Shown here: in pieces, positions 7,479 to 17,848 of the stretch
How the letters are laid out: every line of letters starts with the position of its first letter
Numbering within the stretch: the stretch's first letter is position 1
Origin: Mycolicibacterium phocaicum
Lineage (GTDB): Bacteria > Actinomycetota > Actinomycetes > Mycobacteriales > Mycobacteriaceae
Length of the DNA stretch: 64,000 bases
Assembly (NCBI RefSeq): GCF_010731115.1
Contig: NZ_AP022616.1
Span: forward strand, 1,860,001 to 1,924,000
Direction: 5' to 3'
Translations under genes and position numbers: made by a program
Notes under the pieces: model-generated
Seen by the model: only the letters and a program-made list of their open reading frames with translations
Databases searched by the model: none
Told to the model about the DNA's origin: nothing

Positions 7479-8385
7479 GCCCGACGGCCACCACCGTCGC
7501 CAGCGCCTGCACCCGGCGGGTCAGTCCCACCGCGCGACGCAGATCGGCGGGCACCGGCGCGGGCCCGGTGCCCAGGGTCGGCCGCATCTCCAGCCGGTGC
7601 GCGTACTGCGTCGCTCCCCCGAGCCGCACGCCCAGCGCCCCGGCGAAGGACGCTTCGGCCACACCGGCGTTGGGGCTCGGGTGCTTGTGCGCGTCGGCGC
7701 GCCACGCCCGCCACGCCGCGGCGGGCCGTCGCGACGCCGCCATGACGCACAGCCCGGTCACGCGGGCCGGCAGATAGTTGAGGACATCGTCGAATCGGGC
7801 TGCCGCCCAACCGAACCGGGTGTAACGCGGGTTGAGGTGACCGATCATGGCGTCCAGGGTGTTGGCACCGCGGTACACCAGCAGGCCCGGCACCCCGGCG
7901 ACGGCGCCCCACAGGATCGGTGCCACCTGGGCGTCGGAGGTGTTCTCCGCGACCGATTCGAGCGCGGCCCGGGCCAGCCCGTCGGCATCCAGCGCCGACG
8001 GATCACGCCCGCACAGGGACGGCAGCAGCTCGCGAGCCGCAGCCACATCGTCGCGCTCGAGCCGCGCCGCCATGTCGGCACCGGTCCGGGCCAGCGACGT
8101 CCCGCCGAGCACGGTGTAGGTCGCCGCGGCGGTCACGAGCGTCTTCGCCACCGGACCCCGCGCGACACGTTCCAGCCCGATGCCCAGCGCGCCCAGCCCG
8201 AGCAGCAACGCCGCGGTGTGGCCGGCCCCCGCCGGCCGGTTGTCGCGGTACGTACGCCGTTCCAGCGCGGCGGCCGCCGTGCCGAACAGCGCTACCGGAT
8301 GGCCGCGGCGTGGGTCGGCCCAGCACACATCGGCCAGGTAGCCGAGCGCCAGACCGGCCGCCCGCGGGGCGCTTCTGTCAAACAC
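7420..8385 (-). CDS. cobD: Adenosylcobinamide-phosphate synthase CobD
   Basis: The 321-residue protein shows the CobD/CbiB pattern: LGYLAD followed by the [12 protein letters not shown] motif near the N-terminus, [17 protein letters not shown] and [12 protein letters not shown] motifs, and [23 protein letters not shown] near the C-terminus. It attaches the aminopropanol arm to adenosylcobyric acid in cobalamin synthesis and is a membrane protein. I chose the GTG at 8385, which gives a length close to the family norm (about 310-320); the frame runs on to 9387 only as a shadow of the divergent gene. The 3' end overlaps the SURF1 gene by 59 bases. Confidence 0.9.
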
Positions 8386-10465: not shown

Positions 10466-11470
10466 TCAGCCCATTGTCAAGACCACGCGGAATCGCGCAT
10501 CGCCCGCCATCATCCGGTCGTAGGCTGCCTGCACCTGGCTCAGCGGCATCGTCTCGACCATCGGCCGTACCCCGGTCAGCGCCGAGAAACGCAACGCGTC
10601 CTCGGAGTCCTGCGACGTCCCAGAGGCCCAGCCCTGCACACCCAGCGACTTGGTGATCAGCGCGATCGGCGGCACCTGCATCAAGTTCTCGGACGCGCCG
10701 ACAACAAGTAACTGACCGCGCGGTTTCAGGCCGCCGAGCACGGCGGTCATCGCATCCGCGGCGGTGACCGTCGAGAGCACCACGACAGCACCACCGAGCT
10801 TGCGGAGTTCGGCCGCAGGGTCAGACCCGCGTGAATCGATGTAGTGATGGGCGCCAAGCTCTTTCGCCAGCGGCGCCTTGTCTTGTCCGCGCGCGATCGC
10901 CGCCACTTCCAACCCCATCTTGGCGGCGAACTGGATCCCGAGATGGCCGAGACCGCCCACCCCGAGGATCCCGACGAGGTCCCCGGGTCGCGCAATCGAA
11001 TTGCGCAGCGAGTTGAACGTCGTGATGCCCGCGCACAACAGCGGAGCGGCTTCCACGAAAGACAAGCCGGCCGGAATCCGCGCCAGCGCCTCGGCCGGAG
11101 CCACCAGGTACTCGGCATAGCCCCCGTCGTAGCTGGCACCGGCGGTCTTGCGCTGCGCGCACGAGATGAAGTCTCCGCGGCGGCAGGGCTCGCACGTGAA
11201 ATCGCAACCACCGAACGCGCCGACGCCCACCCGGTCACCGATGGCCCACGCGCTGACGCCGGCGCCGACCGCGTCGACTTCGCCGGCGATCTCATGCCCC
11301 GGCGTACGCGGGAACGTATTGCCCAGCGTGCCCGCCACCGTCATCGAATCGGTGTGGCAGACGCCGCAGGCACGGACGCGGATCCGCACTTGCCCAGGCC
11401 CGGGCTCGGGAATGTCCATGTCCGCCAACTCAAATCGCGCACCCTGTGCCAGAACACGGGCTGCCTTCAT
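10466..11470 (-). CDS. Zinc-dependent alcohol dehydrogenase (MDR family)
   Basis: The 334-residue medium-chain dehydrogenase has catalytic zinc ligands C38 (CGVCHTD) and GHE, a structural zinc lobe with four cysteines (GGC, FTC, EPC, ISC), and a Rossmann motif GVGGLGHLG. It should oxidise a primary alcohol or reduce an aldehyde with NAD(P). The ATG at 11470 gives the family start MKAARV; the frame continues upstream only by chance. It is divergent from the thiocyanate-hydrolase-type operon across 220 bases, so a shared regulatory region is possible, although no obvious operator was found there. Confidence 0.88.
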   Translation of the reverse strand: MKAARVLAQGARFELADMDIPEPGPGQVRIRVRACGVCHTDSMTVAGTLGNTFPRTPGHEIAGEVDAVGAGVSAWAIGDRVGVGAFGGCDFTCEPCRRGDFISCAQRKTAGASYDGGYAEYLVAPAEALARIPAGLSFVEAAPLLCAGITTFNSLRNSIARPGDLVGILGVGGLGHLGIQFAAKMGLEVAAIARGQDKAPLAKELGAHHYIDSRGSDPAAELRKLGGAVVVLSTVTAADAMTAVLGGLKPRGQLLVVGASENLMQVPPIALITKSLGVQGWASGTSQDSEDALRFSALTGVRPMVETMPLSQVQAAYDRMMAGDARFRVVLTMG

Positions 11471-11690
11471 CGTCGCCACGCGATGCACCCTACGCCGGAA
11501 CAACGAGCCCACCTCGGGAAGGTGAGCGCGAACGCGCCAAACCGGCACGCGACTGCCACGGCAACGGTTAAGGTCGGAAAAGTAGTCATGTGAGCCAGGA
11601 CGCGGGGGTGCGTTCGTCCCTCAGCATGTGTTGGATGCCGGATCGGGCCTCGCGTCAGTTTGTCGCCTCTGCACAACACGAGGAGCTGTC

Positions 11691-12530
11691 ATGAGCACAG
11701 CGGCCGAGCGCGCAGCCCAATTGGGCTTGGTGTCCCGACTGAAATCGTCCTACCCGGAACTTCCCGACGCCCCCTACCCCGACATGCTGGATGCGGCCCG
11801 GATCCAGGCCTACCTGAAACCGGTGCACGACGTGGGCGGCGAGCCCGACGCCCCGATGGAGTACGTCAACAAGCAGTACGAGCTGTGGGAACACATGACG
11901 TACGTGATCTGCGAGGTGCTGGCCTGGCGCGGCATCTGGTTGTCGGAGGAGCGGCGCCGCATCGGCAACGTCGACGTCGGCCGTGCGGAGTACCTGGGTC
12001 TGCCCTATTACGGCCGCTGGCTGCTGTCGGTCGCCCGGGTCCTGATCGAGAAGCATCACATCAGCCTCGGCGAACTCATGGAACGGATGGCCGAGGTGAG
12101 GGGCCGTTACGAGGGCGGGCTCGACGGCAAGACCCTCGAGGCGAAGCCCAGGTCCGAGGGCGACGGGGCGAACGTCAAGCGCAACAAGCATCACATCGAA
12201 GCCGTCGGCATCGGCGATCCGCAGATCTACGCCGGTAAGGCCGGGACACCGAAGTTCAAGGTCGGCGACGCCGTGCGGGTGCGGGAGCTGCCGGTGATCT
12301 TCTACACCCGCACCCCGGAGTACGTGCGCGGCGCGACCGGCAAGATCGCGGTGCTGGCCTACGAGAGCCCGGCGCCGGAGGACGAGACGTGGGACATCCC
12401 CGAGGCGCCGCCCGAGTGGTTCTACGTCGTCGAGTTCAACCAGTCCGAGCTGTGGCACGACTACACCGGCACGACGCGCGACACCCTGCGCACCGAAATC
12501 CCCGAACGCTGGCTGGAAGCCGCCACCTAG
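11691..12530 (+). CDS. Fused beta-alpha subunit of thiocyanate hydrolase-type (nitrile hydratase family) enzyme
   Basis: The 279-residue protein joins two modules. Residues 1-145 match the beta-type N-terminal module (VPHDVGG-like PVHDVGGEPD, ELWEHMTYVICEVLAWRG, YLGLPYYGRWLLSVARVL). Residues 172-279 match the SH3-like C-terminal module (GIGDPQ, FKVGDAVRVRELP, FYTRTPEYVRGATG, TEIPERWLEA). In Thiobacillus thioparus thiocyanate hydrolase, as I recall, these are separate proteins, ScnB and ScnA; in nitrile hydratase they form one beta chain. The detailed similarity is to ScnB and ScnA, with a Lys/Arg/Gly-rich joint at about 146-171. The family hydrates a triple-bonded C-N group; thiocyanate would give carbonyl sulfide and ammonia. 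GAGGAG precedes the ATG at 11691. A true nitrile hydratase is the alternative. Confidence 0.8.
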   Translation: MSTAAERAAQLGLVSRLKSSYPELPDAPYPDMLDAARIQAYLKPVHDVGGEPDAPMEYVNKQYELWEHMTYVICEVLAWRGIWLSEERRRIGNVDVGRAEYLGLPYYGRWLLSVARVLIEKHHISLGELMERMAEVRGRYEGGLDGKTLEAKPRSEGDGANVKRNKHHIEAVGIGDPQIYAGKAGTPKFKVGDAVRVRELPVIFYTRTPEYVRGATGKIAVLAYESPAPEDETWDIPEAPPEWFYVVEFNQSELWHDYTGTTRDTLRTEIPERWLEAAT

Positions 12531-12577
12531 CTCGAATCACCGATGCGCTCAATTCACTGATACCAGAAGGGATTTGC

Positions 12578-13297
12578 ATGTCGGATCACCATCATGATCA
12601 TGACCACGACCACGCCCGCACCGTGAAACCCATGGTCGACGAGATCACCGACTTCGAGGTCCTCGAGATCGCCCTGCGCGAGTTGTGCATCGAGAAGGGC
12701 ATTTTCACCGCCGAGGAGCACCGGCGGTTCACCGAGTTCGCCGAGCAGATCGGCCCCACCCCGGCGGCGCGGCTCGTCGCACGGGCTTGGCTGGACCCCG
12801 AGTTCAAGGAGCTGGCCGTCAACGATTCACTCGCCGCCAGCAAGGCCGTCGGCGTCGATTGGCTGGAGCCGACCGGCTTCGGCACCCCGAGCGATTTCGT
12901 CGCGTTCCAGATTCTCGCCGATACGCCGACGGTGCATCACGTCATCGTCTGCGCGCTGTGCTCGTGCTATCCGCGGCCGATCCTGGGGAACTCCCCCGAG
13001 TGGTACCGCACGCCCAATTACCGCCGGCGCCTGGTCCGTTGGCCGCGTCAGGTGCTGGCCGAGTTCGGGCTCTACCTGCCCGACGACATCGAGGTCCGGG
13101 TCGAGGACTCCAACCAGAAGCACCGGTTCATGGTGATGCCGATGCGCCCCGAGGGCACCGACGGCTGGACCGAAGATCAACTGGCCGAGATCATCACGCG
13201 CGACTGCCTGATCGGCGTGGCACTCCCCAAACCGGGCGTGACCACCAACGCGATCGTGACGACGCGCCCCGCCATGCACCCGGGGACGGCCGGATGA
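12578..13297 (+). CDS. scnC: Thiocyanate hydrolase-type gamma (metal) subunit
   Basis: The 239-residue metal subunit of the nitrile hydratase/thiocyanate hydrolase family carries the metal-claw motif V124-C-A-L-C-S-C130; C125, C128, C130 and the S129 backbone should bind a non-corrin cobalt or iron, with the last two cysteines normally oxidised. The following YPRPILGNSPEWY and RRLVRWPRQVLAEFG segments are close to ScnC as I remember it. The position between the two claw cysteines is Ala rather than the usual Thr (cobalt) or Ser (iron). The N-terminus is His/Asp-rich (residues 4-12), plausibly a cobalt-handling tail. The gene starts 48 bases after the beta-alpha gene and overlaps the activator gene by ATGA. 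Confidence 0.85.
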   Translation: MSDHHHDHDHDHARTVKPMVDEITDFEVLEIALRELCIEKGIFTAEEHRRFTEFAEQIGPTPAARLVARAWLDPEFKELAVNDSLAASKAVGVDWLEPTGFGTPSDFVAFQILADTPTVHHVIVCALCSCYPRPILGNSPEWYRTPNYRRRLVRWPRQVLAEFGLYLPDDIEVRVEDSNQKHRFMVMPMRPEGTDGWTEDQLAEIITRDCLIGVALPKPGVTTNAIVTTRPAMHPGTAG

Positions 13298-13632
13298 GCG
13301 AGATCGCGCCACTGCGGGACATCGTGGCCCGTGACCAGGTGTGGTCGCGCATGGCCGCCAAGTGGGGTGTCGAAAACCCTGTTCCCCCATGGAAAACCAG
13401 CCTCGACGGACTCTGTGACGCACTGGACCATTCGGCCTGCGAAGCCGAGGTGCTCAATTTCAAGGACCGCCGCGACGAAGAGGACGCCCTCTCGGCCACG
13501 GTGTATGCGAGCCTGCCGTACCCGGAGAACCAGCTGGTCTCGCTCGCCCATTCACTGGTCGCGCGCGGCGTCATCAGCGAAGCGGAGTTGCAGGAACGAC
13601 TCGCGAGCGTGCGGGCCAGGCTGGAGGGCTGA
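13294..13632 (+). CDS. P15K-like nitrile hydratase/thiocyanate hydrolase activator
   Basis: The 112-residue protein resembles the N-terminal half of nitrile hydratase beta subunits and the P15K-type accessory protein needed for cobalt insertion and cysteine oxidation in thiocyanate hydrolase. Visible markers are PPWKTSLDGLCDALDHSAC and the C-terminal LVARGVISEAELQERLASVRARLE segment shared with beta N-terminal domains. Two cysteines are near the middle. The ATG at 13294 overlaps the gamma-subunit stop, so translation is coupled, as expected for a subunit-specific chaperone. It ends eight bases from the convergent aldehyde dehydrogenase gene. Confidence 0.75.
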   Translation: MSEIAPLRDIVARDQVWSRMAAKWGVENPVPPWKTSLDGLCDALDHSACEAEVLNFKDRRDEEDALSATVYASLPYPENQLVSLAHSLVARGVISEAELQERLASVRARLEG

Positions 13633-15121: not shown

Positions 15122-17848
15122 CTATGCGTCCTGCTGTGCCTGGTGCGCCGCATCCGGGTCCGGCAGCGACTGCACATCGCCGTCGACACTGGAGGTGATG
15201 GTGCCGGTCAGCGACTGCTGGAACGCGTTGATGTTCGCGTCGGCTGTCAGATAGCCGGTGTGGGCGCCGGTGACGGTGATATCGGCCAGGTAGTGGACCG
15301 TCGTCTGACTGGCGTTGTAGTCGGCGGATTCGGTGCCGTTGAGAATCTCGCCCAGTTCGTTGACATAGTTGGTGTAGGTGACGGTGCGGATGGTGCGCGT
15401 CGGATCGTTGGAGTCCGGCGCCTCGGTCACCACCGCGGTACCACCACCCACACCCGAATAGGTGCCGGTGGCCGGCAGCGGTGTGGTGGCGGCGACGTAG
15501 CTGCCGAGGGCCGGTGCCCACGAATCCGAGCTCGGCGTCGACCGGTCCGCCGCGACCGGTCCGACACTGGTGGTGTACTTCAGGTTCGCGATGACCAGCC
15601 GGGACACCGTCGGATCGGTGGTGCTGGACTCCCAGAACGTGACAGCGGTGCCGTCGGGATTCCAGCTCGGCATGCTGCGGGCCGCGTATCCGTCGCCGGC
15701 GTCGAACAGCGGAATGCCGTTCTCCCGGTTGAGTTCATCACCGACCTGGACGATCCATTCCTGGTTCGAGATGTTGACCGGGGCGGCCCACTCCAGGTAC
15801 ACGGGTGCGCCGACGTACACCGGCAGGAAGTTCTGCCGGATGATCCGCGTCATCGGGGTCAGCGCATTGAGCCCGCGGGTGCTGCCGATGGCGATCCACT
15901 GCATGTTGGGCGAGTAATCCATGTCCTCGTCGTAGTCGAGGTTGGCCGTCACCCTGGTGACCTTGCCGGTGGCGAGGTCGACCTCGATGTCGTCGACATT
16001 GCCCGCATCGAATTGGCCGCCGAGGATCACCACGCCCTTACCGTCCGGTGTCCACTGCTTGCCCTCACCCGTGGGGTACACCACCCGGGCGTCGGTGACC
16101 GTGTAGCCGGTATCGGTGCGGGTGAGCGTGCCGACGATCGGCAGGGCCTGCAGCAGGTTGTTGGGCCCGATCACGATTCGGGTGTACAGCACGTGGGTGC
16201 CGTCCGGCGACACCCGCATCTCGCGTTGCGGATCGATGGCGTAGCCACCGCCGGCCGGCGTGGTGATCGAAACCAGCTGGGTCCCGTTGATTCCGGTTTC
16301 CAGCATGGAGTAGCGCGGCGTCTGCCCGGCGACGTTCACCAGCACCAGTACCCGGCCCGAACCGTCGTCGACGGGAACGGGTTTGGCCAGATTTCCGGTT
16401 TCGCCGACGCTGACGCCGCAGGTCACACATTGCAGCGCCGTTCCGTCGGTCTTGACCTGGTAGATCTCCGAGCGGCCCCCGCTGGTCGGTTGGCCGGCGA
16501 AGAAGATGGATTGGCCGTCGGCCGAGTAACGCGGATTCGCCGGGCTGGCAATGGTGCCGGGCAGGTTCAGGATCACCCGCTGGACTTCGGGGTTGAGCAC
16601 CGAAACGTCGATGCCGGCCTTGGCGCTGTGCGGGCTGAACAGACCCAGCAGGTTGAACTTGCCGTCCGTCACCGACACGGAGAACGAATCGGTCTGCACC
16701 GCCGTGTAATTGATGTCGTTCGGGGTGTAGGTGAAGTTGCCGGTGGCCTGATCGATGGTCAGCGTGCCGTACTTCGGCCCCTGTGTGACCTTGTAGGTCA
16801 GGGCGTCGCCTTCGGCGTCGGACGCGCCGAGGTTACCGGTCACTGTCTGGCCGGTCTGAACTGTCGTGGTCGGGTTGTATGCGATGGTCGGGGCCTGGTT
16901 GAACACGTTGCGCCGCACCCAGGCGAGTACCGCCCACACCGCCGGGGTCAGCGGGTCCGCGGTGTTGGGTGCCGGCTTCACGAACGGGTTGAGCAGATTG
17001 GTCACCACACTGTTGAGAAAGCCCGCCAAACCCGTTGCCGGAGAGACGACCTGAGTCGTCACGGCGGCCGGTATCGCGGCGGTGGCAGCCGTCGCGGCGA
17101 CCGCCATCGTCTGTGTCGTGGCGGCCGTGGAGGCAACTGCCGCCGCGGTCACCGCGGCGGTCTTGGCCGTGACGTTGGTGCTGACGGCCGCGGTGCTCGC
17201 CGCCTGCGTGGAGGGCGAGGCGGTGGTGGTCTCCGCACGCGCCGGCTTGGCCGGGGATTTGGTGGTCGTGCCCGGCTTGGACGAGGGCTTGGCACTCGTG
17301 CGCGGCTTGGCCGCCACCGATGCCGTACCGCCGCCGGCACTTTCGTGTGCGTCGCCCTTCGGAGTCGTCGATGAACTGCCGGTATGGGCTCCCCCACTGC
17401 TGCTGACGACCACCCCCGAGCCCACCTCGGCGCTCGACGACGTCGATCCGGACGTCGGTGATGTGCCTGACGTCCCTGGGACCGAAGACGATCCGGTGCC
17501 ACCCGAGCCACTCGCCGATTCGGTCGTCCCGGTCGTCCCCGTGGTGCCCGCCGTTGCGGTTACACCGGTGTTCGTCGGGGACCCACTCGTCGCACTGCCC
17601 GCGGCACCCGAGGACGTCGACCCACCCGGTGCGCTCATCGAACTCGATGACGATGAACTCGCCGACCCGCCAACGGTATCCGCGACGGCCACTCCGTGAC
17701 CGGTCGCCACCGCGGTGGCCAGCCACGCCGCGACCGCCAGGCCGCCATACCCGCCGATCTTGGCGGCTCTCTGACAGGAGTGGGACGCAGGTACCTCGGG
17801 TGCCACTGAGGCAAACAGCGGATTGACGGGAGAACTGTTACTGGCCAT
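15122..17848 (-). CDS. Large secreted protein with Ser/Thr-rich stalk, Ig-like domain and TolB-type beta-propeller
   Basis: The 908-residue exported protein starts with a mycobacterial-type long signal region (hydrophobic core about 33-57). A low-complexity Ser/Thr/Gly/Ala stalk runs to about residue 290. A cadherin/VCBS-like Ig domain follows (about 318-400, with GASDAEGDALTY and TGNFTYTPND). Then comes a WD40/TolB-like propeller (about 425-770) with repeats such as NPRYSADGQSIFF, MRVSPDGTHVLYTR, KQWTPDGKGVVI and MPSWNPDGTAVTFWE. The C-terminal 130 residues have no recognised domain. It is probably cell-surface or extracellular. It lies between an SDR and an aldehyde dehydrogenase on the same strand (58 and about 24-base gaps), which is an odd place for a surface protein. 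Confidence 0.8.
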   Translation of the reverse strand: MASNSSPVNPLFASVAPEVPASHSCQRAAKIGGYGGLAVAAWLATAVATGHGVAVADTVGGSASSSSSSSMSAPGGSTSSGAAGSATSGSPTNTGVTATAGTTGTTGTTESASGSGGTGSSSVPGTSGTSPTSGSTSSSAEVGSGVVVSSSGGAHTGSSSTTPKGDAHESAGGGTASVAAKPRTSAKPSSKPGTTTKSPAKPARAETTTASPSTQAASTAAVSTNVTAKTAAVTAAAVASTAATTQTMAVAATAATAAIPAAVTTQVVSPATGLAGFLNSVVTNLLNPFVKPAPNTADPLTPAVWAVLAWVRRNVFNQAPTIAYNPTTTVQTGQTVTGNLGASDAEGDALTYKVTQGPKYGTLTIDQATGNFTYTPNDINYTAVQTDSFSVSVTDGKFNLLGLFSPHSAKAGIDVSVLNPEVQRVILNLPGTIASPANPRYSADGQSIFFAGQPTSGGRSEIYQVKTDGTALQCVTCGVSVGETGNLAKPVPVDDGSGRVLVLVNVAGQTPRYSMLETGINGTQLVSITTPAGGGYAIDPQREMRVSPDGTHVLYTRIVIGPNNLLQALPIVGTLTRTDTGYTVTDARVVYPTGEGKQWTPDGKGVVILGGQFDAGNVDDIEVDLATGKVTRVTANLDYDEDMDYSPNMQWIAIGSTRGLNALTPMTRIIRQNFLPVYVGAPVYLEWAAPVNISNQEWIVQVGDELNRENGIPLFDAGDGYAARSMPSWNPDGTAVTFWESSTTDPTVSRLVIANLKYTTSVGPVAADRSTPSSDSWAPALGSYVAATTPLPATGTYSGVGGGTAVVTEAPDSNDPTRTIRTVTYTNYVNELGEILNGTESADYNASQTTVHYLADITVTGAHTGYLTADANINAFQQSLTGTITSSVDGDVQSLPDPDAAHQAQQDA

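Follow-up and report, generated by a model that had tools for sequence, protein, structure and literature searches.

What kind of enzyme is made by an operon that puts two subunits of thiocyanate hydrolase (SCNase) into a single chain, and what would a mycobacterium gain from it? The question is raised by three genes in a 64,000-nucleotide stretch of the Mycolicibacterium phocaicum genome (contig NZ_AP022616.1, positions 1,860,001 to 1,924,000 of the forward strand; "the window" in what follows), encoding a joined beta-alpha chain, a gamma subunit with a metal-binding cysteine claw and a P15K-like putative activator (Table 1). In thiobacilli scnB and scnA are separate genes. The answer that we favor, at a probability of a little over three in four, is that the operon encodes an actinobacterial SCNase, fused once, which would serve mainly to obtain nitrogen from thiocyanate.

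A sequence-only reading of the window had proposed just such an SCNase-type operon, with ScnB-like and ScnA-like modules in one 279-residue chain followed at tight spacing by a gamma subunit and a P15K-like activator. The three frames are intact; 47 nucleotides separate the beta-alpha gene from the gamma gene, and the start of the activator overlaps the gamma stop by 4 nucleotides (ATGA). Compared with the solved Thiobacillus thioparus SCNase, the beta-alpha chain aligns with ScnB (2dd4_B) over residues 9-144, at 136.5 bits (E 1.1e-38), and with ScnA (2dd4_A) over residues 166-278, at 123.9 bits (E 7.5e-35), against 45 for the best NHase (nitrile hydratase) beta chain in the solved-structure search; Pfam places NHase_beta_N at 44-150 and NHase_beta_C at 183-276. 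Thus the claim for the chain was exact, and both modules are encoded, in one chain, ahead of the gamma subunit. The latter matches ScnC (2dd4_C) at 386.8 bits and the best NHase alpha chain at 191.4. With 398.6 bits it is above the cut-off of the SCNase gamma equivalog TIGR03887 (291.45), and with 207.8 bits below that of the NHase alpha model TIGR01323 (249.85); the beta-alpha chain falls short of the NHase beta model TIGR03888 (90.1 bits, cut-off 152.2), as do the T. thioparus subunits (28 and 58 bits). Identities to T. thioparus DSM 505 are 46% for beta, 57% for alpha, 70% for gamma and 44% for the activator.

The family assignment was also examined with a tree built from the beta part, the alpha part and gamma together, in 80 rows. 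(A gamma-only tree has 92 rows, after omission of nine by name, as repeats or short, and then of rows at least 88% identical to a kept row; 12 of the 92 do not have both beta domains and were omitted from the concatenated tree.) The window and T. thioparus DSM 505 lie in one SCNase clade with support of 100/100, so that the beta-alpha and gamma proteins, the two which the tree covers, do not fall inside the ordinary NHases, and the proposed SCNase-type operon with its fused chain is upheld by the gamma cut-offs and by the clade alike. Within that clade the window belongs to a one-chain actinobacterial group of 21 rows (support 100/97), which also takes in L057 (see below). In the tree the SCNases of Pseudonocardia autotrophica (L013) and Kitasatospora arboriphila (L061) nest among mycobacterial and related rows, a placing that suggests transfer or mislabelled records. 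Judged by sequence, this is a real, intact and widespread actinobacterial SCNase operon.

Gene structure was compared in named loci, the best 80 of 124 relatives, 61 of them actinobacterial and 19 proteobacterial. The beta-alpha genes form one chain in 60/61 actinobacterial loci, which argues against chance or a frameshift, and are two separate genes in 18/19 proteobacterial ones. The actinobacterial exception, from Mycolicibacterium sp. CBMA 247 (L057:4352-4934), has a broken beta-alpha frame beside open gamma and activator frames, which may reflect either decay or a sequencing error. The proteobacterial exception, L048, is a fused SCNase on a 4-kb contig labelled Methylocystaceae; given the size of the contig and a place inside the actinobacterial clade, it is likely to represent contamination or transfer, a binning error probably. 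A split SCNase of three genes occurs within the genus of the window itself, in one member (genome G389, locus L088), and branches basally in the SCNase clade; no second match above the cut-off was found in that genome, the two weaker ones scoring 167.6 and 159.2 bits. In Antrihabitans stalagmiti (L025:1941-3271) an NHase-like pair lies upstream of the SCNase operon on the opposite strand.

Residues around the metal site were compared over the 80 tree rows, comprising 29 SCNase rows, 29 NHase rows and 22 others which, like the SCNases, have Arg in place of the Trp that follows the claw (below, "other Arg-type"). Gamma Arg133, equivalent to ScnC 136, is Arg in 29/29 SCNase and 22/22 other Arg-type rows and in 0/29 NHase rows, where Trp (27), His (1) and Phe (1) are found; the NHase motif YPW after the claw is accordingly YPR in the window gamma. 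Beta Arg88, equivalent to ScnB 90, is Arg in 28/29 SCNase rows and in none of the 29 NHase or 22 other Arg-type rows, the lone SCNase row without it having T and belonging to the split-labelled set, which includes the broken L057. At the Arg133 position the printed alignment shows Trp in 3vyg_C, a solved chain. In T. thioparus SCNase, substrate selectivity depends on the arginines at ScnB 90 and ScnC 136. The claw itself has the form C-x-L-C-S-C, as CALCSC at gamma 125-130, with Ala replacing the Thr that is found in the thiobacillus claw and in those of all 29 NHase rows compared. Of the 80 named loci, 43 have CALCSC (L048 and 42 of the 61 from actinobacteria), 33 have CTLCSC, and 4, all Nocardia, have CSLCSC. 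By the usual rule of the superfamily, Thr at this position goes with cobalt and Ser with iron; Ala fits neither pattern, which puts the metal in question.

The third gene of the operon aligns over its full length with the gene that follows scnC in T. thioparus DSM 505 (44% identity, E 1e-32); from its position and homology, that gene is in turn presumably the one for P15K. These alignments and the gene coordinates bear out the gamma subunit, P15K-like protein and tight spacing of the earlier reading. The solved-structure search returned no relative of the activator below E 0.4, and its profile match to the beta N-domain family is a weak one, at 24.4 bits against a cut-off of 21.5. An activator lies downstream on the same strand in 80/81 loci, the window included, and in L039 it is on the opposite strand near a contig end. 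One locus (L008:6092-7498) has a second P15K-like frame (79 bits) immediately behind the first activator. P15K assists cobalt insertion, and the presence of an activator of this type would speak for cobalt.

Taken together, these features are consistent with an enzyme that would carry out the reaction SCN- + 2 H2O -> COS + NH3 + OH-, where COS is carbonyl sulfide. The CxLCSC claw of gamma would hold a trivalent metal, most likely cobalt, loaded by the P15K-like protein; beta Arg88-Arg89-Arg90 and Arg207 of the alpha module would be placed near it, and gamma Arg133 with beta Arg88 would form a positively charged pocket for the anion.

In the usual account SCNase belongs to the sulfur-oxidising thiobacilli. 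The genome sets searched here are samples drawn by the search tool, and the counts should be read as proportions and not as totals. The window genome has a single such locus. In its genus a match to the gamma model is found in 294/396 genomes and exceeds the cut-off in 264/396, so that the sequence-only reading was right about a fused mycobacterial form but not in so far as this was taken for a peculiarity of the strain. In another genus member (G029:C1:1825330-1825719) the gamma gene is present in three pieces only and is probably a decayed copy. Across the phylum of the window 9/396 genomes are above the cut-off, all from the window's own family in the coding of the tool; across that of T. 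thioparus the figure is 1/398, namely the T. thioparus genome that served as the sampling centre. Named loci of Pseudonocardia, Actinomycetospora and Nocardia, among others, have the fused form too. Relatives of the fused chain numbered 815 in a protein search, and among the names of the best 120 of the 815 "thiocyanate hydrolase subunit beta" occurs, as do two clusters named "subunit alpha/subunit beta", so that automatic annotation has already noticed the fusion. PMC10098168 contains an SCNase tree and, in the available part of its text, calls actinobacteria "well-represented", and the portion of PMC3751702 at hand mentions a thiocyanate degradation cluster for Nocardia farcinica. In the open-licence literature, among the papers listed, no title or abstract opening on a mycobacterial SCNase assay or on a beta-alpha fusion was found, which does not imply absence from print.

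Most likely the ammonia released from thiocyanate would be used when nitrogen is scarce; carbonic anhydrases could convert the COS further, to H2S and CO2. In chemostats of M. smegmatis, MSMEG_6266 and MSMEG_6267 rose 3.68- and 3.42-fold under nitrogen limitation (PMC4617892, available sections), and the accessible part of PMC11001197 gives 2.37- and 2.35-fold increases for the same two genes in a strain deleted for PII and grown on nitrate. This induction favors nitrogen scavenging; the use of thiocyanate as a nitrogen source, which the sequence-only reading had offered beside sulfur supply and detoxification, is thereby supported in part, from the published M. smegmatis data and not from the sequence of the window.

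That the enzyme serves instead for sulfur supply or for detoxification, by way of COS and H2S, is an unlikely alternative. The T. thioparus enzyme yields COS, which the title of Katayama 1992 names as well. The soil strain Mycobacterium sp. THI401 degrades COS strongly, according to the available text of PMC7308577. Two loci of the PF00484 (beta-carbonic anhydrase) family were found in the window genome, and their products could possibly take COS onward to H2S + CO2. Although solved carbonyl sulfide hydrolase entries exist, no chain of that name was among the solved matches of either protein at E <= 0.001, and the best solved matches of both are named carbonic anhydrase; the candidates for a carbonyl sulfide hydrolase elsewhere in the genome were set aside on that ground. 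The published induction, moreover, is one by nitrogen limitation (PMC4617892, in the part available), which argues for nitrogen as the main benefit of the putative SCNase.

As to how the two subunits came to be joined, the tree was rooted on the NHases, the root being placed there and not inferred by the tree method. Seven split proteobacterial SCNases form the sister group of the one-chain actinobacterial clade (98/98); the split L088 branches below these two groups, and further out are split three-gene families with Arg for Trp after the claw. These Arg-type relatives (L127-L135, L137, L140-L142, L145, L147, L153-L155, L157-L159 and L171, with YPRA, YPRN, YPRM and similar motifs) come from other Actinomycetota and from the T. 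thioparus phylum, and score below the SCNase gamma cut-off. The joined chain thus marks one clade among split relatives, which points to a re-fusion and not to a leftover NHase beta chain, and the simplest history, supported by parsimony, would be that an NHase-type beta gene split once in the line leading to the Arg-type families and was then re-fused once, basally in the actinobacterial SCNases; it is to this single gene fusion that the one-chain arrangement would be due. The beta-alpha state changes twice on the tree if L161, L095 and L057 are left unscored; counting L161 as split makes three changes, and counting L095 so too makes four. A history in which the ancestors of the SCNases were one-chain throughout, the split forms being products of several independent fissions, seems improbable to us. 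The NHase beta is read as one frame in 27/29 NHase rows, so that a single chain is a possible deep ancestral state, and splits can occur within the NHases too: in L161 (790-1520), which has the NHase-type YPW, the beta domains lie in two overlapping frames outside the Arg-type group. (L095, also an NHase row, has its domains in two frames, with a weak N-domain match within the beta frame itself; its separate N-domain frame may be an activator.) But split genes are found in all 22 other Arg-type rows, in the basal L088 and in each of the seven proteobacterial SCNases, and a history without fusion calls for six independent splits within the Arg-type rows, or eight with L161 and L095, against the one split and one re-fusion of the favored history.

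A substrate other than thiocyanate, be it another small anion or a nitrile (cyanide or cyanate, for example), with thiocyanate hydrolysis only incidental, is quite improbable: the wider role suggested by the sequence-only reading and the Ala variant of the claw would leave room for it, but the pocket arginines are kept in the SCNase rows (29/29 in gamma, 28/29 in beta), and no conserved neighbour hinting at another pathway was found across the actinobacterial loci. Least probable is an ordinary cobalt NHase with a normal one-chain beta kept from its ancestor. Most NHase rows are built in this way, with both Pfam domains in a single beta chain, and the superfamily and the claw would agree with it, but the beta-alpha and gamma proteins fall below the NHase cut-offs, the window sits in the SCNase clade, Arg replaces the pocket Trp, and forcing the one-chain SCNases together with the NHases lowers the log-likelihood by 149.9 (p-AU 1.5e-6).

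Several observations weigh against an actinobacterial SCNase that was fused once, uses cobalt and scavenges nitrogen. The change of the claw Thr to Ala in the window, and to Ser in the four Nocardia loci, weakens the assumption of cobalt. In the genus, 102/396 genomes are without a gamma match at E <= 0.001, so that the enzyme is dispensable. The gamma-only tree separates Arg-type from Trp-type sequences but does not resolve how fused and split SCNases branch relative to each other, for which reason the three-part tree was used, and the two-frame beta of L161 indicates that the superfamily has seen more than one split. The orthology of MSMEG_6266 and MSMEG_6267 rests on their annotation as thiocyanate hydrolase beta and gamma, and the word "thiocyanate" is absent from the main text, as far as available, of a paper on the GlnR regulon (PMC3662644). 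Finally, simple motifs gave no GlnR box upstream of the window operon: the best intergenic match to Gn2AC-n6-GnAACA has two mismatches, and in 71 upstream stretches (the window's own being included three times, as the window, L001 and L091) the best matches are no better than those in shuffled sequence. A GlnR box as control element of the operon was accordingly rejected, matches being at chance level in the window and its relatives; nitrogen scavenging, under some regulator, is the likely reading.

The SCNase family itself is already known; of note are how the chain came to be re-fused, the Ala in the claw and the mycobacterial share of the distribution. A bolder view joins these: mycobacteria and their kin, and not thiobacilli, would be the main holders of SCNase, in a re-fused form for nitrogen scavenging whose majority CALCSC claw, lying off the Thr/Ser pattern, may go with a different use of metal. 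As a whole this is speculative, and we would not bet on it at even odds or near them. If it is true, mycobacteria would have been overlooked as producers of COS from thiocyanate, in soil as well as in water. The single beta-alpha chain would be a natural test of the effects of subunit splitting and re-fusion on metal loading, and with Ala in the claw the question of the metal can be put to a direct test.

Table 1. Operon genes of the window and the features bordering them (positions in the window)
Feature	Position	Strand	Basis
Fused thiocyanate hydrolase beta-alpha chain, 279 residues (ScnB-like 9-144, linker ~145-165, ScnA-like 166-278)	11691..12530	+	Structure and Pfam matches
Thiocyanate hydrolase gamma (metal) subunit, 239 residues; claw CALCSC at residues 125-130, Arg133 in YPRP	12578..13297	+	TIGR03887 match
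P15K-like activator, 112 residues (presumed metal-insertion helper)	13294..13632	+	T. thioparus homologue, position
Intergenic stretch from the divergent alcohol dehydrogenase to the operon; presumed promoter region	11549..11690	.	GlnR-type matches at chance level
Zinc-dependent alcohol dehydrogenase, divergent neighbour, outside the conserved unit	10466..11548	-	Profile matches, locus comparison

The divergent zinc alcohol dehydrogenase had been thought to hint at a wider role for the operon, but this neighbour is not conserved. In the 179 loci with any match, the alcohol dehydrogenase query gave, beyond the window's own copies (L001, L091), three weak matches only (L127 at 87.6 bits, L068 at 44.4 and L058 at 44.2), and an aldehyde dehydrogenase query found only L021 (224.1) and L114 (29.7). 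Both dehydrogenases were therefore ruled out as functional partners, being near-absent beside the relatives. L127, a split relative outside the SCNase clade, weighs against that rejection: a frame resembling alcohol dehydrogenase lies upstream of its split operon, on the other strand. Elsewhere in the window, a CobD/CbiB (cobalamin synthesis) domain at 7522-8352 on the minus strand lies ~3.3 kb upstream of the operon, and a link with cobalt is possible. A 908-residue frame on the minus strand at 15122-17848 has a low-complexity N-terminal part rich in Ser, Thr and Ala, and gave a weak PD40 propeller match only.

Among known systems the closest is ScnB-ScnA-ScnC with P15K of T. thioparus (2dd4, 2dd5, 2zzd, 3vyg), which is like the window in the order of its modules, the claw cysteines and serine, the pocket arginines, the activator gene and the clade; it differs in that in the window beta and alpha are joined, the claw Thr is Ala and the activator has 112 residues. 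Among the proteobacterial SCNase loci, 17 have a LysR regulator and an ABC-transporter ATPase as recurring neighbours (one representative per family was identified), whereas no such recurrent neighbours were seen in the actinobacterial ones. The annotated beta and gamma of M. smegmatis, MSMEG_6266 and MSMEG_6267, occupy consecutive loci and appear without an alpha in the expression tables, in the parts available, as expected of a fused form, the likeness being one of annotation. With the alpha and beta subunits and activator of cobalt NHase, the window operon has the superfamily and the metal-site motif in common, and NHase beta is usually one chain too; the window nonetheless stands in a separate clade, scores below the NHase cut-offs and has Arg for the pocket Trp. 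Toyocamycin nitrile hydratase (TNH) has three subunits, according to the available text of PMC8574189, two small ones and a metal subunit as in thiobacillus SCNase, and split rows near the SCNases, such as L127, share that layout, a likeness of layout only; in the window the two small subunits are joined. Fusion of subunits in this superfamily is known also from Monosiga brevicollis, whose nitrile hydratase, as described in the accessible portion of PMC2603476, joins the metal subunit to beta, whereas the window joins the two beta halves and keeps its metal subunit separate.

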